Below are positions 1 through 6,211 of a stretch of DNA of 64,000 bases, piece after piece. The stretch is taken from positions 6,324,001 to 6,388,000 of the forward strand of contig NZ_LT629777.1 in the NCBI RefSeq assembly GCF_900105475.1, written 5' to 3'. A model generated the notes under the pieces. That model was not told where the DNA came from. It was given only the letters and a program-made list of their open reading frames with translations, and made no database searches. The stretch comes from Pseudomonas asplenii. GTDB taxonomy: Bacteria > Pseudomonadota > Gammaproteobacteria > Pseudomonadales > Pseudomonadaceae. Position 1 is the first letter of the stretch. Each line of letters begins with the position of its first letter. Made by a program: the position numbers and the translations under genes.

Positions 1-243
1 ATTGCCCTGAGCCCCCTTTGGGGTGATCCAGGTGACCTTGCCGGCGACCGGAATCTTCTCCAGCTCATCCATCAGGTTCAGCAGCATGAACACCTCGTCG
101 CCCAACTTGTAGCTCTTGTTGGTGGGGATGAACAGGCCACCATTCTTGATAAAGGGCATATAGGCCGCGTACAGCACCGACTTGTCTTTGATGGTCAGCG
201 ACAGAATGCCGTTGCGCGGGCCAGGACCAATAGGTTCGTTCAT
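1..243 (-). CDS. pilZ: PilZ domain protein, type IV pilus assembly (3' part beyond window)
   Basis: The N-terminal 81 residues are visible and the rest lies beyond the left edge. The protein begins MNEPIGPGPRNGIL and continues with a PilZ-like beta barrel (LYAAYMPFIKNGGLFIPT, then LGDEVFMLLNL and VAGKVTWITPKGAQGN). The short length before the barrel and the position directly downstream of holB match the stand-alone PilZ of pseudomonads, which is needed for type IV pilus biogenesis. That subgroup is known to lack the c-di-GMP-binding arginine motif, and none is visible here. The start ATG lies 38 nt after the holB stop, so the two are probably co-transcribed. Confidence 0.85.
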   Translation of the reverse strand, partial: MNEPIGPGPRNGILSLTIKDKSVLYAAYMPFIKNGGLFIPTNKSYKLGDEVFMLLNLMDELEKIPVAGKVTWITPKGAQGN

Positions 244-281
244 GCAGACTCCCGAAATGCAGATAAGCCGATTCTAGGGCA

Positions 282-1268
282 TCAGTTTTGGCTAGGCAAA
301 GCGGCCCACTGTACCAGCAGCGCTTCGAGCAGCAGCACCCGGTTGAGGTTGGCCTTGCTCAGCACCTTCTGGCGCTGGGCGAGGATCCAGTCCTGGATAT
401 TCAGAACCTTTTCCCGCGACGCCTTCTGCGCCAGGTACTGCACCACCTTGCGCATGTCCGGCAGGCCGAGACCCTCCTCGTCCTGGGTCAGCTGATAGCG
501 CAGGATCAGGTTCGACCAATCGCAGAACCAGTCGAACAACAGCAACAGCGGGATGGCGTTCCAGCCTTCGGCCAGTTGCGTCGCCGACAGCTGCTGCTTG
601 AGCAGCCTCTTCACCCCATCGACCACCTGCGCCCGCTGCTCGCGCACGCCCTGGGCCTGCAGGTTGGCCGCCATCAGTGGCGAGCCGGCCGCCAGGGTCA
701 GCAGCTCCACCCGCTCCTCTTCGCTGCAATCGGGCAAGGCCGTAGCCAGCCACTGCAGACTCATCGCCTCGCTCGGCAGCGGGCAGGCCTGCTGCACGCA
801 GCGGCTGCGCACGGTCGGCAACAAGCGGCTGGACTGATGGCTGACCAGCAGCAGCACGGTGTCGCCGGAGGGTTCTTCAAGGCTCTTGAGCAAGGCGTTG
901 GCGGCGTTGATGTTCATCGACTCCACCGGTTCGATCAGCACTACCTTGCGCCCGCCCAGTTGCGCGGTCTGGGCGACGAAACCGACCAGGTCACGGACCT
1001 GGTCGACCTTGATCGCCTTGTCCGCTTCCTCGGGTTCCAGGATGTAGTTGTCCGGGTGGCTGCCGGCTGCCAGCAACAGGCACGACTTGCACTGCCCGCA
1101 AGCCTCCAGGCCCGCCGGGCTCTTGCACAGCAGCAACGCCATCAGCCGCTCGGCCAACGCGCGCTTGCCGATCCCCGCCGGGCCATGCAGCAGGTAGGCA
1201 TGGGCATGCTGGGTACGCCCGGCCAGTTGCTGCCAGAGGGTATTCTGCCAGGGATAGGCTTCAGCCAT
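282..1268 (-). CDS. holB: DNA polymerase III delta' subunit
   Basis: Clamp-loader AAA+ subunit of 328 residues, which helps load the beta clamp at the replication fork. A P-loop-like GPAGIGKR is at residues 29-36. A four-cysteine zinc site follows (C48, C57, C60, C63 within the CGQCKSC region). NALLKSLEEP, the usual delta' sensor/SRC-region motif, is near residue 125. The start ATG (1266-1268) gives a normal-length protein. In most pseudomonads tmk lies directly upstream in the same operon. Here the upstream neighbour is a divergent dNMP kinase, so holB must have its own promoter in the 1269-1419 gap. Confidence 0.95.
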   Translation of the reverse strand: MAEAYPWQNTLWQQLAGRTQHAHAYLLHGPAGIGKRALAERLMALLLCKSPAGLEACGQCKSCLLLAAGSHPDNYILEPEEADKAIKVDQVRDLVGFVAQTAQLGGRKVVLIEPVESMNINAANALLKSLEEPSGDTVLLLVSHQSSRLLPTVRSRCVQQACPLPSEAMSLQWLATALPDCSEEERVELLTLAAGSPLMAANLQAQGVREQRAQVVDGVKRLLKQQLSATQLAEGWNAIPLLLLFDWFCDWSNLILRYQLTQDEEGLGLPDMRKVVQYLAQKASREKVLNIQDWILAQRQKVLSKANLNRVLLLEALLVQWAALPSQN

Positions 1269-1308
1269 GCTGCAACCCCATCACGCGCTGCGGCGCGCCA
1301 GCCGGTTG

Positions 1309-1324
1309 TTTTATCTTGATAAAA
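1309..1324. promoter_or_regulatory. Perfect inverted repeat between holB and dNMP kinase
   Basis: TTTTATC-TT-GATAAAA is a 16-bp perfect inverted repeat in an otherwise GC-rich 150-bp gap between two divergent genes. It sits about 40 bp upstream of holB and about 95 bp upstream of the kinase start. It overlaps an AT-rich stretch that could hold promoters for either gene. An operator function is inference from symmetry and position only. Confidence 0.4.
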
Positions 1325-1419
1325 AATCTAAACACAGCAGTATGGGTATCCTTTCGACAACAGGTAAACAGGGAGGCCGTCTGCGCCGGCTACCCTGGCA
1401 AGGCTCCAGGAGCAACAGT

Positions 1420-2235
1420 TTGAGAACCATCATCGGGCTCGCCGCACTCGCCAGATCCGGCAAAGACACGGTAGCGTCAATGCTGCTCACCCAAGCGGAG
1501 ATTGCCGCCTTTGCCCTGGCCGACCCACTCAAGGTCGGCTGCCAGGCCCTCTTCGGCCTGAGCGATGAACAAACCTGGGACGATACATTAAAAGAACAGA
1601 AGATTGATCGGTGGAACCGTTCCCCGCGCGAGTTCTTCCAGCAAGTCGGCACGGAGTGGATGCGCAATCATAACCCAGACCACTGGTTGCAGCGGGCGGA
1701 TCGCGAGATCAATCCGCCGCGCGACGACAGCGCCTGGTCGGGCACGGCCAACCTGTCTGCCGCCGACGCGCCCCTGCGCCTGGCGGCCCAAGCCTTCTTC
1801 GACTTCTCGAACGCGCAGATCTGGGACGCTGGGCATTACTCGCAGATCGATCCGAGCTGGAACATTTCCCCGCAGAATGCCGTCGCCCTGATCGAACGAC
1901 ATGCCCTGGCCTTCGACCCCGATTACGCCGCCAAACGCGCCCAACTGCCGCTGGCCCCACTCAAGCGCCGTCCGCCGCTGCCGGCCAGCGCTTCGACGAT
2001 CATCATCAAGGACATCCGCTTCGAAAACGAAGCGCAGTACCTGCGCGAGCATCATGGCGTCATCTGGCACATCACCCGCCCCAACCTGCAACAGGTCAAT
2101 GCCCACTCTTCGGAACTGGGCGTGGCACGCCAGCCCGGGGACGTGCTGATCGTCAACGACGGCAGCCTGGAGCAGTTGCAAGCGGTGGTGATGCAGGCGT
2201 GGCAACATCACCAAACCACCCAGCAGGCCCACTGA
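1420..2235 (+). CDS. Deoxynucleotide monophosphate kinase, phage T4 gp1-like
   Basis: Predicted P-loop kinase of 271 residues. The chosen start is TTG at 1420, because AGGAG sits 8 nt upstream and the protein then begins MRTIIGLAALARSGKDT, placing the P-loop (G6-T17) at the N-terminus as in the family; the open frame itself extends upstream to 1267. GTEWMRNHNPDHW in the middle and GDVLIVNDGSLEQL (about residues 240-253) match the recalled T4 dNMP kinase, whose end reads GDLVITNDGSLEEL. T4 gp1 phosphorylates dTMP, dGMP and hydroxymethyl-dCMP. An extra segment of about 80 residues (about 110-190) separates the conserved parts. The gene occupies the place where tmk normally lies, on the opposite strand. 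Family membership is well supported; its substrates here are inference. Confidence 0.85.
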   Translation: MRTIIGLAALARSGKDTVASMLLTQAEIAAFALADPLKVGCQALFGLSDEQTWDDTLKEQKIDRWNRSPREFFQQVGTEWMRNHNPDHWLQRADREINPPRDDSAWSGTANLSAADAPLRLAAQAFFDFSNAQIWDAGHYSQIDPSWNISPQNAVALIERHALAFDPDYAAKRAQLPLAPLKRRPPLPASASTIIIKDIRFENEAQYLREHHGVIWHITRPNLQQVNAHSSELGVARQPGDVLIVNDGSLEQLQAVVMQAWQHHQTTQQAH

Positions 2236-2248
2236 AAGATCCCACAGC

Positions 2249-2413
2249 CTAATCACCGCCAATCCGGCCATGCAGCCCTTGGGATACCCACTCTCGCACT
2301 GCATCCACGCGGAACATCCCGTCTCGCAGTTGCTCTGCTCTGGCGGCGCTAAGAGCTTTGGCCTCTGGAGACATTTTCTCACGCAAGGTCGAGAAAGGTT
2401 TCTTTACTGACAT
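2249..2413 (-). CDS. Small antitoxin-like protein (54 aa), possible remnant
   Basis: A 54-residue frame starts at ATG 2413 with AGGTGA 5 nt upstream, a convincing ribosome binding site. Its first half, MSVKKPFSTLREKMSPEAK followed by ALSAARAEQLR, resembles the N-terminal arm of HigA/XRE-type antitoxins, where an arm like LREKMSPEA precedes the helix-turn-helix. Here the HTH is missing: the protein continues DAVREWVSQGLHGRIGGD and stops. It lies between the dNMP kinase and mltG with no toxin gene alongside. It may be a truncated antitoxin or an unrelated small protein. Confidence 0.45.
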   Translation of the reverse strand: MSVKKPFSTLREKMSPEAKALSAARAEQLRDGMFRVDAVREWVSQGLHGRIGGD

Positions 2414-2576
2414 GGCGCTCACCTACTTTTTCAGTTCATCCAGTTCACCGCAGTGAGCCTCTGCAGGTGACAAGCCACAAACACAGTCGATGATCCAGCA
2501 CGAAACAGGCAGCCTCCATAGGAAGCTGCCTGGACTCAGAAGGAAATGTCGGTTTTCAGATCAGACTTTTCGGAGC

Positions 2577-2596
2577 GGGCCGAGCAAACTCGGCCC
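2577..2596 (-). terminator. Hairpin downstream of mltG
   Basis: GGGCCGAG-CAAA-CTCGGCCC is a perfect 8-bp stem with a 4-nt loop, starting 20 nt past the mltG stop. No strong T-run follows, so an intrinsic terminator is likely but not typical. It separates mltG from the dNMP kinase region. Confidence 0.5.
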
Positions 2597-2616
2597 AGAC
2601 CAGCTGACAACCAGAA

Positions 2617-3831
2617 TCACTGCGCCTCTTTCGGCTCAGGCTCAGTGGTTGACGGCACTTCTGTCGGTGCAGTGGCCGGTGCCGCCGCGGGCTCGCCGGC
2701 ATCCTGGGCTGGCGGAGCGTGCTTCACTTCAGCGTCCGGCGCAGGATTCGTCGTGGCCGCAGGAGCCTGAGTCGGTGCCGGACTGGAACGGTAATCCGCC
2801 CGACGCTTGAGCTGGAACTCGCGCACCGCATTGTTATGCGCATCCAGATCGTCGGAGAAGACGTGGCTGCCATCGCCACGGGCGACGAAGTACAGACTCT
2901 TGCCCTCCACCGGATTCAACGCCGCATGGATCGCCTCACGACCGACCATGGCAATCGGAGTCGGCGGCAGACCGGCGTTGAGGTAGGTGTTGTAGGGATT
3001 GGCCTCGCGCAGATGAGCGCGTGTCAGCTTGCCGGTATAACGCTCGCCCAAACCGTAGATCACCGTCGGGTCGGTCTGCAGCAGCATGCCAAGCTGCATC
3101 CGCCGGACGAAGACACCGGCAATCTGCCCGCGCTCCTGCGGCACACCGGTTTCCTTCTCCACCAGCGACGCCATGATCAGCGCCTGGTAAGGATCGGTAT
3201 ACGGCGCATCGGCCGAACGCTTTTCCCATTCCTGGGCCAGGACGTTCTGCAAGCGGTCGTAGGCCTTTTCCAGCAACTCGGCATCGGTCATCCCACGCAC
3301 GAAACGATAGGTATCCGGGAAGAAACGCCCTTCCGGAAACACATCCTTATGGCCGAGCCTGGTCATGACTTCGCTGTCGCTGAGCCCGGTCAGGGTCTGC
3401 TGGAGCTTTTCGTTCTTGGCCAGCGCAGCGCGCACCTGGCGGAAGTTCCAGCCTTCGACCAGGGTCAGGCTGTACTGCACCACTTCGCCACGCTGCCAGA
3501 GCCCGAGCAAGGTGCGGACATTCATCCCCGGCGTAAGGCGGTACTCGCCACTGTGCAGTTGCACCCCAGCCAGGTTGAAACGCCAGTACAGACGCAACCA
3601 GAACGCATCCCGCAGCGTGCCATCGGCCTCCATGCGGTTGAAGGTGCCGGTCGGCGTGGCGCCAGTCGGCACATCGAGCAGTTGCTCCTGCGTCAGGTTG
3701 AGGGACTGCTCCAGCGCCGAATGGATCTTCCAGGCCGATACGCCCAGCAACAATCCCGCCAGCACCAGAGCTGTCTGCAGCAGCAAGAAGAATTTACGTC
3801 TCAATTCAAACTTCCAATAATGCGCGGGCAA
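2617..3831 (-). CDS. mltG: Endolytic murein transglycosylase MltG
   Basis: Inner-membrane lytic transglycosylase that cleaves nascent glycan strands and so sets peptidoglycan strand length. One membrane segment lies at residues 13-33, followed by the YceG domain. The catalytic glutamate is E225 in ASLVEKETG, and downstream LQTDPTVIYGLG and NPYNTYLNAGLPPTPI are family hallmarks. The tail from about residue 345 is rich in Pro, Ala and Glu and is probably disordered. The start overlaps the end of pabC by 26 nt or less, so the two are translationally coupled. The usual downstream partner tmk is missing. Confidence 0.92.
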   Translation of the reverse strand: MPAHYWKFELRRKFFLLLQTALVLAGLLLGVSAWKIHSALEQSLNLTQEQLLDVPTGATPTGTFNRMEADGTLRDAFWLRLYWRFNLAGVQLHSGEYRLTPGMNVRTLLGLWQRGEVVQYSLTLVEGWNFRQVRAALAKNEKLQQTLTGLSDSEVMTRLGHKDVFPEGRFFPDTYRFVRGMTDAELLEKAYDRLQNVLAQEWEKRSADAPYTDPYQALIMASLVEKETGVPQERGQIAGVFVRRMQLGMLLQTDPTVIYGLGERYTGKLTRAHLREANPYNTYLNAGLPPTPIAMVGREAIHAALNPVEGKSLYFVARGDGSHVFSDDLDAHNNAVREFQLKRRADYRSSPAPTQAPAATTNPAPDAEVKHAPPAQDAGEPAAAPATAPTEVPSTTEPEPKEAQ

Positions 3832-4621
3832 TGCCTTGCAGTTTACGGGTGAGCGGACCCACCGACCAGCTCAGATCGGCCAAGGCACGAACCGGCCAGA
3901 CACCGTAAACACTATTACAAAGAAAGACCTCATCCGCCTGCCGAAGTTGCTCCAGGCTGATGTCTGAAATATCCACAGGGATGCCCAGAGCCCGGGCCTG
4001 ATCCAGTAGTTCGGCGCGCATGACCCCCGCTACGCCGCAACGGCTCAGATCAGCGGTACGCAATACGCCCTCACTGACCAGGAACAGGTTACTGAATACG
4101 CCTTCGATCACCCGCCCGGCACCGTCGAGCATCAGCCCTTCGGCATGCTCGGCATCCTGCCATTCGCTACGGGCCAGCACCTGCTCCAAACGGTTGAGAT
4201 GCTTGAGACCGGCCAGCAACGGCTGCTCCGACAAACGGGTGGTGCAGGGAAAGAGACGGATACCCAGGTTCTGCAGCGCCGGTGGATAACTCGGCAATGG
4301 ACTGCCTTGCAGGATGCGCCGCAGCTGCGCATCCGCCGCCGCCGCATAACCGCGCAGACTGTCACCACGAGTGAGGATCAGCTTGAGCACGCCCTCGCCC
4401 ATGGCGGCACTGTAGACCAGCATTTCGCTGCGGATCAACGCCTGATTGGCGTTCATCCCCAGGCGCCGACAGCCTTCGGCCAGGCGCTGCAGATGTCGCT
4501 CCAGCAGCACCGGCCGACCGCCCTTGACGGCGAGGGTCTCGAACAGGCCATCGCCATACGCCAGGCCACGGTCCTTGAGCGGCAGTGAATCAGCCGGCTG
4601 ACCGTCGACCCAGCTCTGCAT
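3806..4621 (-). CDS. pabC: Aminodeoxychorismate lyase
   Basis: PLP-dependent fold-type IV enzyme (271 aa) converting 4-amino-4-deoxychorismate to p-aminobenzoate and pyruvate for folate synthesis. The motifs RGLAYGDGLFETL near residue 18 and GLKHLNRLEQVLAR near residue 140 are diagnostic, and the second contains the PLP-binding lysine. I use ATG 4621, which overlaps the fabF stop as TGATG; a GTG one codon upstream is also possible. Its place between fabF and mltG is the conserved order in gammaproteobacteria. Confidence 0.93.
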   Translation of the reverse strand: MQSWVDGQPADSLPLKDRGLAYGDGLFETLAVKGGRPVLLERHLQRLAEGCRRLGMNANQALIRSEMLVYSAAMGEGVLKLILTRGDSLRGYAAAADAQLRRILQGSPLPSYPPALQNLGIRLFPCTTRLSEQPLLAGLKHLNRLEQVLARSEWQDAEHAEGLMLDGAGRVIEGVFSNLFLVSEGVLRTADLSRCGVAGVMRAELLDQARALGIPVDISDISLEQLRQADEVFLCNSVYGVWPVRALADLSWSVGPLTRKLQGIARALLEV

Positions 4622-5865
4622 CACTCGGCGAACCGACGGAACACCAGCGAACCGTTGGTGCCACCAAACCCGAAGGAGTTGGACAGCACCACGTCGATCG
4701 GCATGCGTCGCGCTTCGTGCGGCACGAAGTCGAGGTCGCAGCCTTCATCCGGCTCGTCGAGGTTGATGGTCGGCGGAGCCACCTGGTCGTTGATCGCCAG
4801 CACGCTGAAGATCGCCTCGATGGCACCAGCGGCTCCCAGCAGGTGACCGGTCATCGATTTGGTGGAACTGACCGCCAGCTTGTGCGCGTGCTCGCCAAAC
4901 ACGGTCTTGATCGCTGCGACTTCGGCGATGTCGCCGGCCGGGGTCGAAGTGCCGTGGGCGTTGATGTACTGCACCTGGTCGGGAGTAATCCCGGCATCAC
5001 GCAGGGCGTTGGCGATGCAACGTGCCGCGCCGGCGCCGTCGGCGGGTGGCGAGGTCATGTGGTACGCATCACCGCTCATGCCAAAACCGATCAGTTCGGC
5101 GTAGATGGTGGCCCCACGCGCCTTGGCGTGCTCCAGTTCTTCGAGCACCAGAGCACCGGCACCGTCGGACAGCACGAAACCGTCGCGGCCCTTGTCCCAC
5201 GGACGGCTGGCACGGGCCGGCTCGTCGTTACGGGTCGAGAGCGCACGCGAGGCGCCAAAGCCGCCCATGCCCAGGCCACAAGCGGCCATTTCGGCACCGC
5301 CGGCGATCATCACGTCAGCTTCGCCGTAGGCGATGTTGCGTGCGGCCATGCCGATACAGTGGGTACCGGTGGTGCAGGCGGTGGAGATGGCGTAGTTCGG
5401 CCCCTGTGCCCCCAGATGGATGGACAGGAAACCGGAAATCATGTTGATGATCGAGCCAGGCACGAAGAACGGCGAAATACGCCGAGGCCCGGAATCATGC
5501 AGGGTACGGCTGGTTTCCTCGATATTGGTCAAACCACCAATACCCGAGCCCATGGCCACACCGATACGCTCGCGGTTGGCATCGGTGACTTCCAGGCCCG
5601 CATCGCGGATCGCCTGAAAACCGGCTGCCAGGCCGTATTGAATGAACAGGTCGAGTTTGCGGGCTTCTTTGGCCGACAAGTATTCTTCGACATTGAAGCC
5701 TTTTACCGAGCCACCAAAACGGGTGGTATAGGCAGAAAGGTCTGTGTGTTCGATCAGACCAATGCCACTGCGGCCAGCCAGAATGCCCTGCCAGGTACTC
5801 GAAACATCCGTACCCAATGGCGACAACATCCCCATACCGGTGACTACGACGCGTCTACGCGACAC
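4621..5865 (-). CDS. fabF: Beta-ketoacyl-ACP synthase II
   Basis: Condensing enzyme (414 aa) that elongates acyl-ACP with malonyl-ACP. The active-site cysteine is C164 in STACTTGTH. The two catalytic histidines are in [12 protein letters not shown] and [13 protein letters not shown], and NSFGFGGTN closes the fold. The start is GTG at 5865, supported by AGGAG 6 nt upstream. It lies 109 bp downstream of acpP with a strong hairpin between them, so part of its expression may come from read-through or a separate promoter. Confidence 0.96.
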
Positions 5866-5910
5866 AGCACTCTCCTTTATCCTGTTGAGCAGTTTGCCTC
5901 ACACCTAAAG

Positions 5911-5946
5911 AAAAAACCGCACGCCACGATGGCAGTGCGGTTTTTC
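5911..5946. terminator. Intrinsic terminator between acpP and fabF
   Basis: AAAAACCGCAC and GTGCGGTTTTT form an 11-bp stem around a 12-nt loop, followed on the minus strand by a run of T. It is placed to end most acpP transcripts, which fits the high demand for ACP relative to the downstream genes. Confidence 0.85.
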
Positions 5947-5974
5947 CATGACAGCAGGCAACGATTACAAACTA

Positions 5975-6211
5975 TTACGCCTGGTGGGCGTTGATGTAAT
6001 CGATAGCAGCTTGTACGGTGGTGATTTTTTCAGCTTCTTCGTCAGGGATTTCGGTCTCGAATTCCTCTTCCAGAGCCATCACCAGCTCAACGGTGTCAAG
6101 GGAGTCGGCACCCAGGTCTTCAACGAAGGAAGCAGGGTTAGTCACTTCTTCTTCCTTGACACCCAGTTGCTCGGCGACGATTTTCTTGACGCGTTCTTCG
6201 ATGGTGCTCAT
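5975..6211 (-). CDS. acpP: Acyl carrier protein
   Basis: Small acidic carrier (78 aa) for growing fatty acyl chains. The phosphopantetheine attachment serine is S37 in [18 protein letters not shown], a textbook ACP motif. It sits between fabG and fabF as expected. It has its own promoter at 6264-6291 and is followed by a strong terminator, so it can be expressed far above its neighbours. Confidence 0.98.

Follow-up and report, generated by a model that had tools for sequence, protein, structure and literature searches.

The mltG-holB interval of Pseudomonas asplenii raises the question of which enzyme phosphorylates dTMP in a cell that has lost tmk from its native slot, thymidylate kinase counting as essential in every domain of life (PMC10653934). 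The stretch of DNA analysed here (the window; 64,000 nucleotides, G000:C1:6324001-6388000) belongs to a genome of one contig (6,529,536 bases, or 6.53 Mb) that is 100% complete. Within it, holB, encoding the DNA polymerase III delta' subunit (282..1268, minus strand; PF13177 and PF09115), and mltG, the left border of the former tmk slot (2617..3831, minus strand; PF02618, E 3e-82), flank a slot at 1269-2616 that holds one plus-strand gene and, as the sequence-only reading had observed, no tmk; in the native relative G001 tmk occupies this slot. The gene (1420..2235, plus strand) encodes a long dNMP kinase of the phage T4 gp1 type, 271 aa in length, which we propose is the sole dTMP kinase of the cell. 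The listed open reading frame begins at 1267 and ends at 2235, the likelier start being the TTG at 1420, with an AGGAG at 1408-1412; the homologue P0002 (271 aa) starts at the same residue. Two minor elements fill the remainder of the slot. A hairpin following mltG is visible by eye at ~2507-2531 and has no T-run; it is not called as a terminator. A 54-aa open reading frame (2249..2413, minus strand) does exist and is of doubtful reality as a gene; it has no family in Pfam, PHROGs or PADLOC and no homologue among the loci compared, and the antitoxin-like label first attached to it is therefore unsupported, as is a role as island cargo.

The absence of tmk extends to the whole genome. The sequence-only reading had proposed a genome-wide search for PF02223 and a comparison of the mltG-holB interval across related Pseudomonas, and both were carried out. 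PF02223 gave no match in the complete genome (37 of 37 candidates scored), while a control search found it in 13 of 14 control genomes, and querying it with a Pseudomonas Tmk protein returned chance matches only, the best at E 0.27. A first check among relatives gave a PF02223 match in 56 of 57 genomes, the exception being the window's own genome, with a weak match only in G003. We give practically no credence to a normal tmk overlooked elsewhere, the genome being a single complete contig, and the displaced tmk considered earlier is ruled out at the sensitivity used. No tmk half was found in the start of the window or in the genome, and protein searches for a tmk remnant gave nothing above chance in window positions 1-6000. 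The holB start codon overlaps the would-be tmk tail, the start region reading GGGGTTGCAGCATGGCTG in the window versus GAGCTGCAGCGTGGCTG in the native G001 locus, and the few codons that overlap this start are the only stretch in positions 1-6000 that resembles a tmk tail, a resemblance that may be enforced by the overlap itself. Thymidylate synthase is encoded in the genome (thyA, E 1e-84); dTMP is therefore made and needs to be phosphorylated.

The P-loop and C-terminal motif by which the kinase had first been likened to T4 dNMP kinase are both conserved, and profile searches bear out the assignment. The protein matches PF21448 in two stretches (75.1 bits, cut-off 27.1), both PF21448 matches of the genome falling in this same gene, and phrog_139 (deoxynucleoside monophosphate kinase) at E 4e-44; it has 390 homologues. 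A profile search of the PDB yields a single match, to T4 dNMP kinase (1DEK, E 1.7e-11), and this match covers the N and C ends and not the middle. An AlphaFold2 model (pLDDT 83.8) likewise returns 1dek as its first Foldseek match (E 1.3e-8), with a TM-score of only 0.40-0.48, an rmsd of ~15 and 16% identity. The window kinase shares the P-loop (RSGKDT, residues 12-17) and C-terminal motif of phage T4 gp1, but is a cellular, chromosomal gene. Its closest functional guide is PP_1964 of P. putida KT2440, where a 65-kb island splits tmk and the island's dNMP kinase is the sole, essential thymidylate kinase (PMC10653934). Fourteen PP_1964 residues given in Table 2 of that paper (R12, S13, G14, K15, D16, T17, K38, D198, R200, E204, R220, H229, E232 and N246) occur under the same numbers in the window kinase, while several listed base-pocket positions (152, 155, 161, 175, 227 and 248-250) differ, the comparison being made by number against the Table 2 list. 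The window kinase is under purifying selection, with dN/dS values of 0.125, 0.141 and 0.151 against three relatives, compared with 0.038, 0.050 and 0.061 for HolB and 0.088 and 0.097 for MltG (two relatives).

By analogy with PP_1964, the window kinase most likely uses ATP to turn dTMP into dTDP and provides the only such activity of the cell, and would accordingly be essential. The KT2440 protein replaces tmk in E. coli and can alone substitute for the whole KT2440 island (PMC10653934). The kinase could instead be accessory, with another nucleotide kinase, e.g. Cmk, covering dTMP; the T4 and T5 kinases do accept several dNMPs as substrates, and the reported presence of a dNMPK-like sequence alongside an intact tmk in P. 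parafulva NS96 illustrates that the two can coexist (PMC10653934). We consider this highly improbable, since a search of the genome for the PF02223 and PF21448 families brought up no further gene of either, PP_1964 resisted inactivation unless E. coli tmk was present in trans (PMC10653934), and every surveyed genome of the genus with the kinase beside holB is without an intact tmk (15 of 15, see below). The non-orthologous replacement of tmk suggested from the letters of this locus is consequently well supported, the absence of tmk, the presence of thyA and the essential KT2440 homologue all pointing the same way, with the function of this particular protein predicted from that homologue.

We surveyed a sample of 398 genomes of the larger genus, including that of the window. 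PF21448 occurs in 36 of them, as a short form (~190 aa) in 20, a 115-aa fragment in one (G314) and a long form in 15. The long kinase adjoins holB in all 15 long-form genomes (in the window it reads away from holB), and in none of them is tmk intact. In nine, tmk is in two pieces (G117, G193, G273, G283, G308, G344, G346, G403 and G407); both pieces lie on one contig in six genomes, from 12.6 kb (G346) to ~115 kb (G283) apart, and in six split genomes the N half directly follows mltG. In three others tmk is eroded or gone and the kinase still stands apart from mltG: G184 (~7.5 kb) keeps a 19-codon tmk remnant, G328 has no tmk and its kinase is 6.3 kb from mltG, and G106 has a degraded tmk C half, with mltG on a different contig. 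In the last three, G003, G336 and the window's genome, the bare kinase is directly beside mltG. Native, split, eroded and bare slots are thus all seen within the genus. A strong Tmk match (best E of 3.6e-45 or lower) is present in every one of the 21 genomes limited to the short form or the fragment, these carriers being counted by genome-level match irrespective of genomic context.

Of the 383 genomes without a long kinase, 380 have tmk, two of these genes (G160 and G200) apparently being cut only by contig ends, although one G200 piece also shows a stop. The three with no strong tmk match are G096 (87% complete), G261 (77% complete) and G129. The weak PF02223 matches of G003 (E 2.7e-7) and G184 (E 7.1e-9) extend over the greater part or the whole of the profile, and second matches of like strength recur in tmk-bearing genomes; we infer that they represent an unrelated PP_3363-like protein. 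PP_3363 itself was found to be dispensable in the KT2440 study (PMC10653934). Two genomes of the survey deserve separate mention. G129, which is absent from the 36 PF21448 genomes, has only ~0.1 kb between mltG and holB (L085:4689-4806) and encodes elsewhere a divergent 233-aa PF02223 protein (L078:5720-6421) whose best PDB match is a bifunctional thymidylate/uridylate kinase (E 1e-16); it exemplifies another type of tmk replacement. In G406, mltG and tmk adjoin each other in broken frames (C1:233851-235653) and a second, full-length Tmk is encoded on another contig (C2:268648-269217), for which sequencing error or contamination are possible explanations.

Where tmk is split, the islands enter it at one point, between Thr98 and Asp99 of the DRFTDATYAYQG motif (..CGCTTCACC|GATGC.. 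in the native gene). On the N side, tmk ends right after the ACC codon of Thr98 at all eight junctions examined. On the C side, foreign DNA reaches codon 99 in 18 distinct loci (22 rows, four genomes being present twice), including those of an Acinetobacter and a Kangiellaceae MAG, and the border reads AACAA|GAT in 10 of the 18. Residue 98/99 was also where the tmk query for the halves had been divided, and two of the N-side junctions were located with a motif that ends in that codon; the evidence for the junction is therefore the adjoining DNA itself. GTAAAC-like motifs are found near both island ends in many loci, and two further relicts, G184 and UBA4617, keep 19 tmk codons at the insertion point. 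A scan of six island or relict loci located the RgsA sRNA (RF00628) on the slot's holB side in every one (e.g. L082:1869-2061).

Behind the kinase, P. protegens FD6 (G346) encodes proteins of 615, 357 and 457 aa, the first and last of them tyrosine recombinases with a Pfam integrase domain, which was not detected in the 357-aa protein. In nine other loci the similarity to the 615-aa protein is divided over two separate segments. In P. rubra two open reading frames, of 727 and up to 791 aa, follow the kinase, with matches to the 357- and 457-aa proteins next in the row; the 727-aa protein has no NCBIfam match. An insert in the first recombinase gene, considered as the source of the split matches, is rejected for P. 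rubra by these two separate frames, and the FD6 615-aa frame (L105:10867-12711) looks like a fusion of two genes that stand apart in P. rubra. This conserved run of tyrosine-recombinase genes and the single exact target site recall the GInt, RIT and SE islands with several tyrosine recombinases (PMC5385486, PMC10214605), of which GInt carries a four-gene operon (ginABCD) with three tyrosine recombinases at one end. The tmk islands differ in that the kinase separates the recombinase genes from the island end, and in the window recombinases of this kind were not found.

Phylogenetic analysis of 24 long kinases with three distant, long-branch outgroups places the bare kinases among those of islands. 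The window clade (four rows, 99/99) sits inside a set of 14 rows (88/98), eight of which have the tmk C half beside the kinase; both halves were found in seven of these eight. (The tree label GI_split_tmk denotes a C half beside the kinase, the N half not having been found for L099, the degraded locus of G106, or for L102.) The other bare kinases, of P. cremoricolorata and G003, group with two island kinases (100/99), and the kinases of G184 and UBA4617, with their tmk remnants, adjoin the island of strain BP8 (93/98). The starred branches thus place bare kinases in at least two separate positions among island kinases. Because six of the 24 branches are open and the outgroup branches are long, we rely on these local groupings and not on the root. 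In a class-wide sample of 369 genomes, eight others gave matches, all weak and distant, and three of these served as the outgroups.

These groupings bear on a further explanation of the locus, in which the kinase stood alone between mltG and holB before islands took it up, so that there never was an island here. The 2023 paper retains this ancestral option for bare kinases (PMC10653934), and no recombinase is found in the window clade, as such a history would have it. Against it, tmk is present in 380 of the 383 genomes without the long kinase, the bare kinases are scattered over the tree among island kinases, and the relicts G184 and UBA4617 keep their tmk codons at the insertion point. The flank of the window and the slots of its closest relatives also argue for a former island.

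In the window, a probable relic of the island right end lies between holB and the kinase (1306..1370), with the terminus TTGTTTT at 1306 followed by TAAACA and GTAAAC motifs. An nhmmer model built from 10 related right ends, with the window clade left out and two of the 10 rows taken from the relicts G184 and UBA4617, gave its best match at 1307-1369 (11.8 bits, E 0.007 over 64 kb and both strands), the next match having an E of 3.9, and the window having been viewed in the right-end alignment beforehand. A 16-locus model found the same place at E 0.026, and the reversed model gave no match in the window. The terminus TTGTTTT itself has five copies in the 64 kb, both strands taken together. 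We regard the hit at 1307-1369 as a weak, well-placed match to an island right end. In the right-end alignment no island end can be recognised at the other bare kinases, those of G003 and G336. Compared with a tmk-integrated island, the window retains a kinase beside holB and reading away from it, together with this putative right end, and has neither tmk halves nor recombinase genes beside the kinase.

The closest relatives found, G328 and the two P. fuscovaginae strains SE-1 (L094) and IRRI 6609 (L095), have kinases 88-91% and HolB proteins about 97% identical to those of the window, and hold other genes in the slot. The distance between kinase and mltG is 0.38 kb in the window, ~1 kb in SE-1, 6.3 kb in G328 and ~10.3 kb in IRRI 6609, the last value assuming shared contig numbering. 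Complete PrfH and RtcB matches lie right behind the kinase in G328 (L082:5461-7226) and IRRI 6609 (L095:10899-12664), only pieces of both are present in SE-1 (L094:7744-8661), and no PrfH-RtcB remains were found in the first 8 kb of the window. The IRRI 6609 slot also contains what, by eye, resembles an aldoxime/nitrile-degradation cluster (L095:13075-20812; AraC-type regulator, aldoxime dehydratase, amidase, nitrile hydratase and CobW-type protein). PF02223 is absent from SE-1 and matches only weakly in IRRI 6609 (E 8.9e-7). No tblastn match to an FD6-type recombinase was obtained in the first 8 kb of the window or in the three relatives (for IRRI 6609 apart from ~0.3 kb before mltG), and it is for this reason that the island of the window clade is deduced from flank, cargo and phylogeny. 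Taken together, the tree groupings, the match to the island end and the series of cargo stages favour, for Pseudomonas, the decay of islands over the ancestry of a bare kinase, and we regard the latter as improbable.

It is therefore very probable that the kinase at 1420-2235 is the last remnant of an island once inserted in tmk, and now the sole thymidylate kinase of the cell. In the proposed course of events, a genomic island present at one time in the lineage of the window would have entered tmk between the codons of Thr98 and Asp99, its own T4 gp1-type dNMP kinase rescuing the host by turning dTMP into dTDP. With tmk broken, the kinase could no longer be lost, and recombinases, cargo and both tmk halves would have eroded around it until it alone was left between mltG and holB. 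The insertion scar that the sequence-only reading had offered as an alternative, along with a displaced tmk, would then be partly right, the gene being a probable remnant of a tmk-inserting island.

Tmk-disrupting islands with such a kinase have been described in Pseudomonas, Halomonas, Acinetobacter and Psychrobacter, and certain beta-proteobacteria and Methylomicrobium are reported to have a bare kinase next to holB and no tmk (PMC10653934). A literature search by titles and abstract openings gave nothing further on a tmk-replacing kinase, and the introduction and selected sections of that paper name no bare kinase without tmk in Pseudomonas. The KT2440 island and the window share the mltG-tmk-holB slot, the kinase type at its holB side and the loss of a functional tmk, but KT2440 keeps its 65-kb island and both tmk halves, whereas the window has no island, recombinases or tmk. 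The nearest laboratory equivalent is the engineered strain SEM11, in which PP_1964 replaces the island, although there the kinase is coupled to holB and in the window it is divergent. Alcaligenes faecalis, Parapusillimonas granuli and Methylomicrobium lacus resemble the window in having the kinase beside holB, no detected tmk and no mobile genes nearby (PMC10653934); these kinases lie outside Pseudomonas and leave the direction of change undecided, whereas the near relatives of the window show intermediates.

In view of the beta-proteobacterial bare kinases (PMC10653934), the kind of event is already known, and the window is a new and advanced case of it, useful since its relatives show intermediate stages. 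Here a near-universal, essential gene has given way to a phage-type enzyme from a different family, which explains why tmk can seem absent from an annotated complete genome. The KT2440 study showed the first step, in which an island breaks tmk and its kinase takes over, and left the choice between decay and ancestry open (PMC10653934). The end and the middle of the path are supplied by the window together with its close relatives and two other relict lineages in Pseudomonas, and these favour decay. The tmk islands would probably act as one-way ratchets, entering an essential gene at a conserved motif, bringing in a foreign kinase to rescue the cell and so making that kinase impossible to lose while the rest decays, a course that in this genus would have ended at least twice independently in permanent replacement, with the intermediates still visible.
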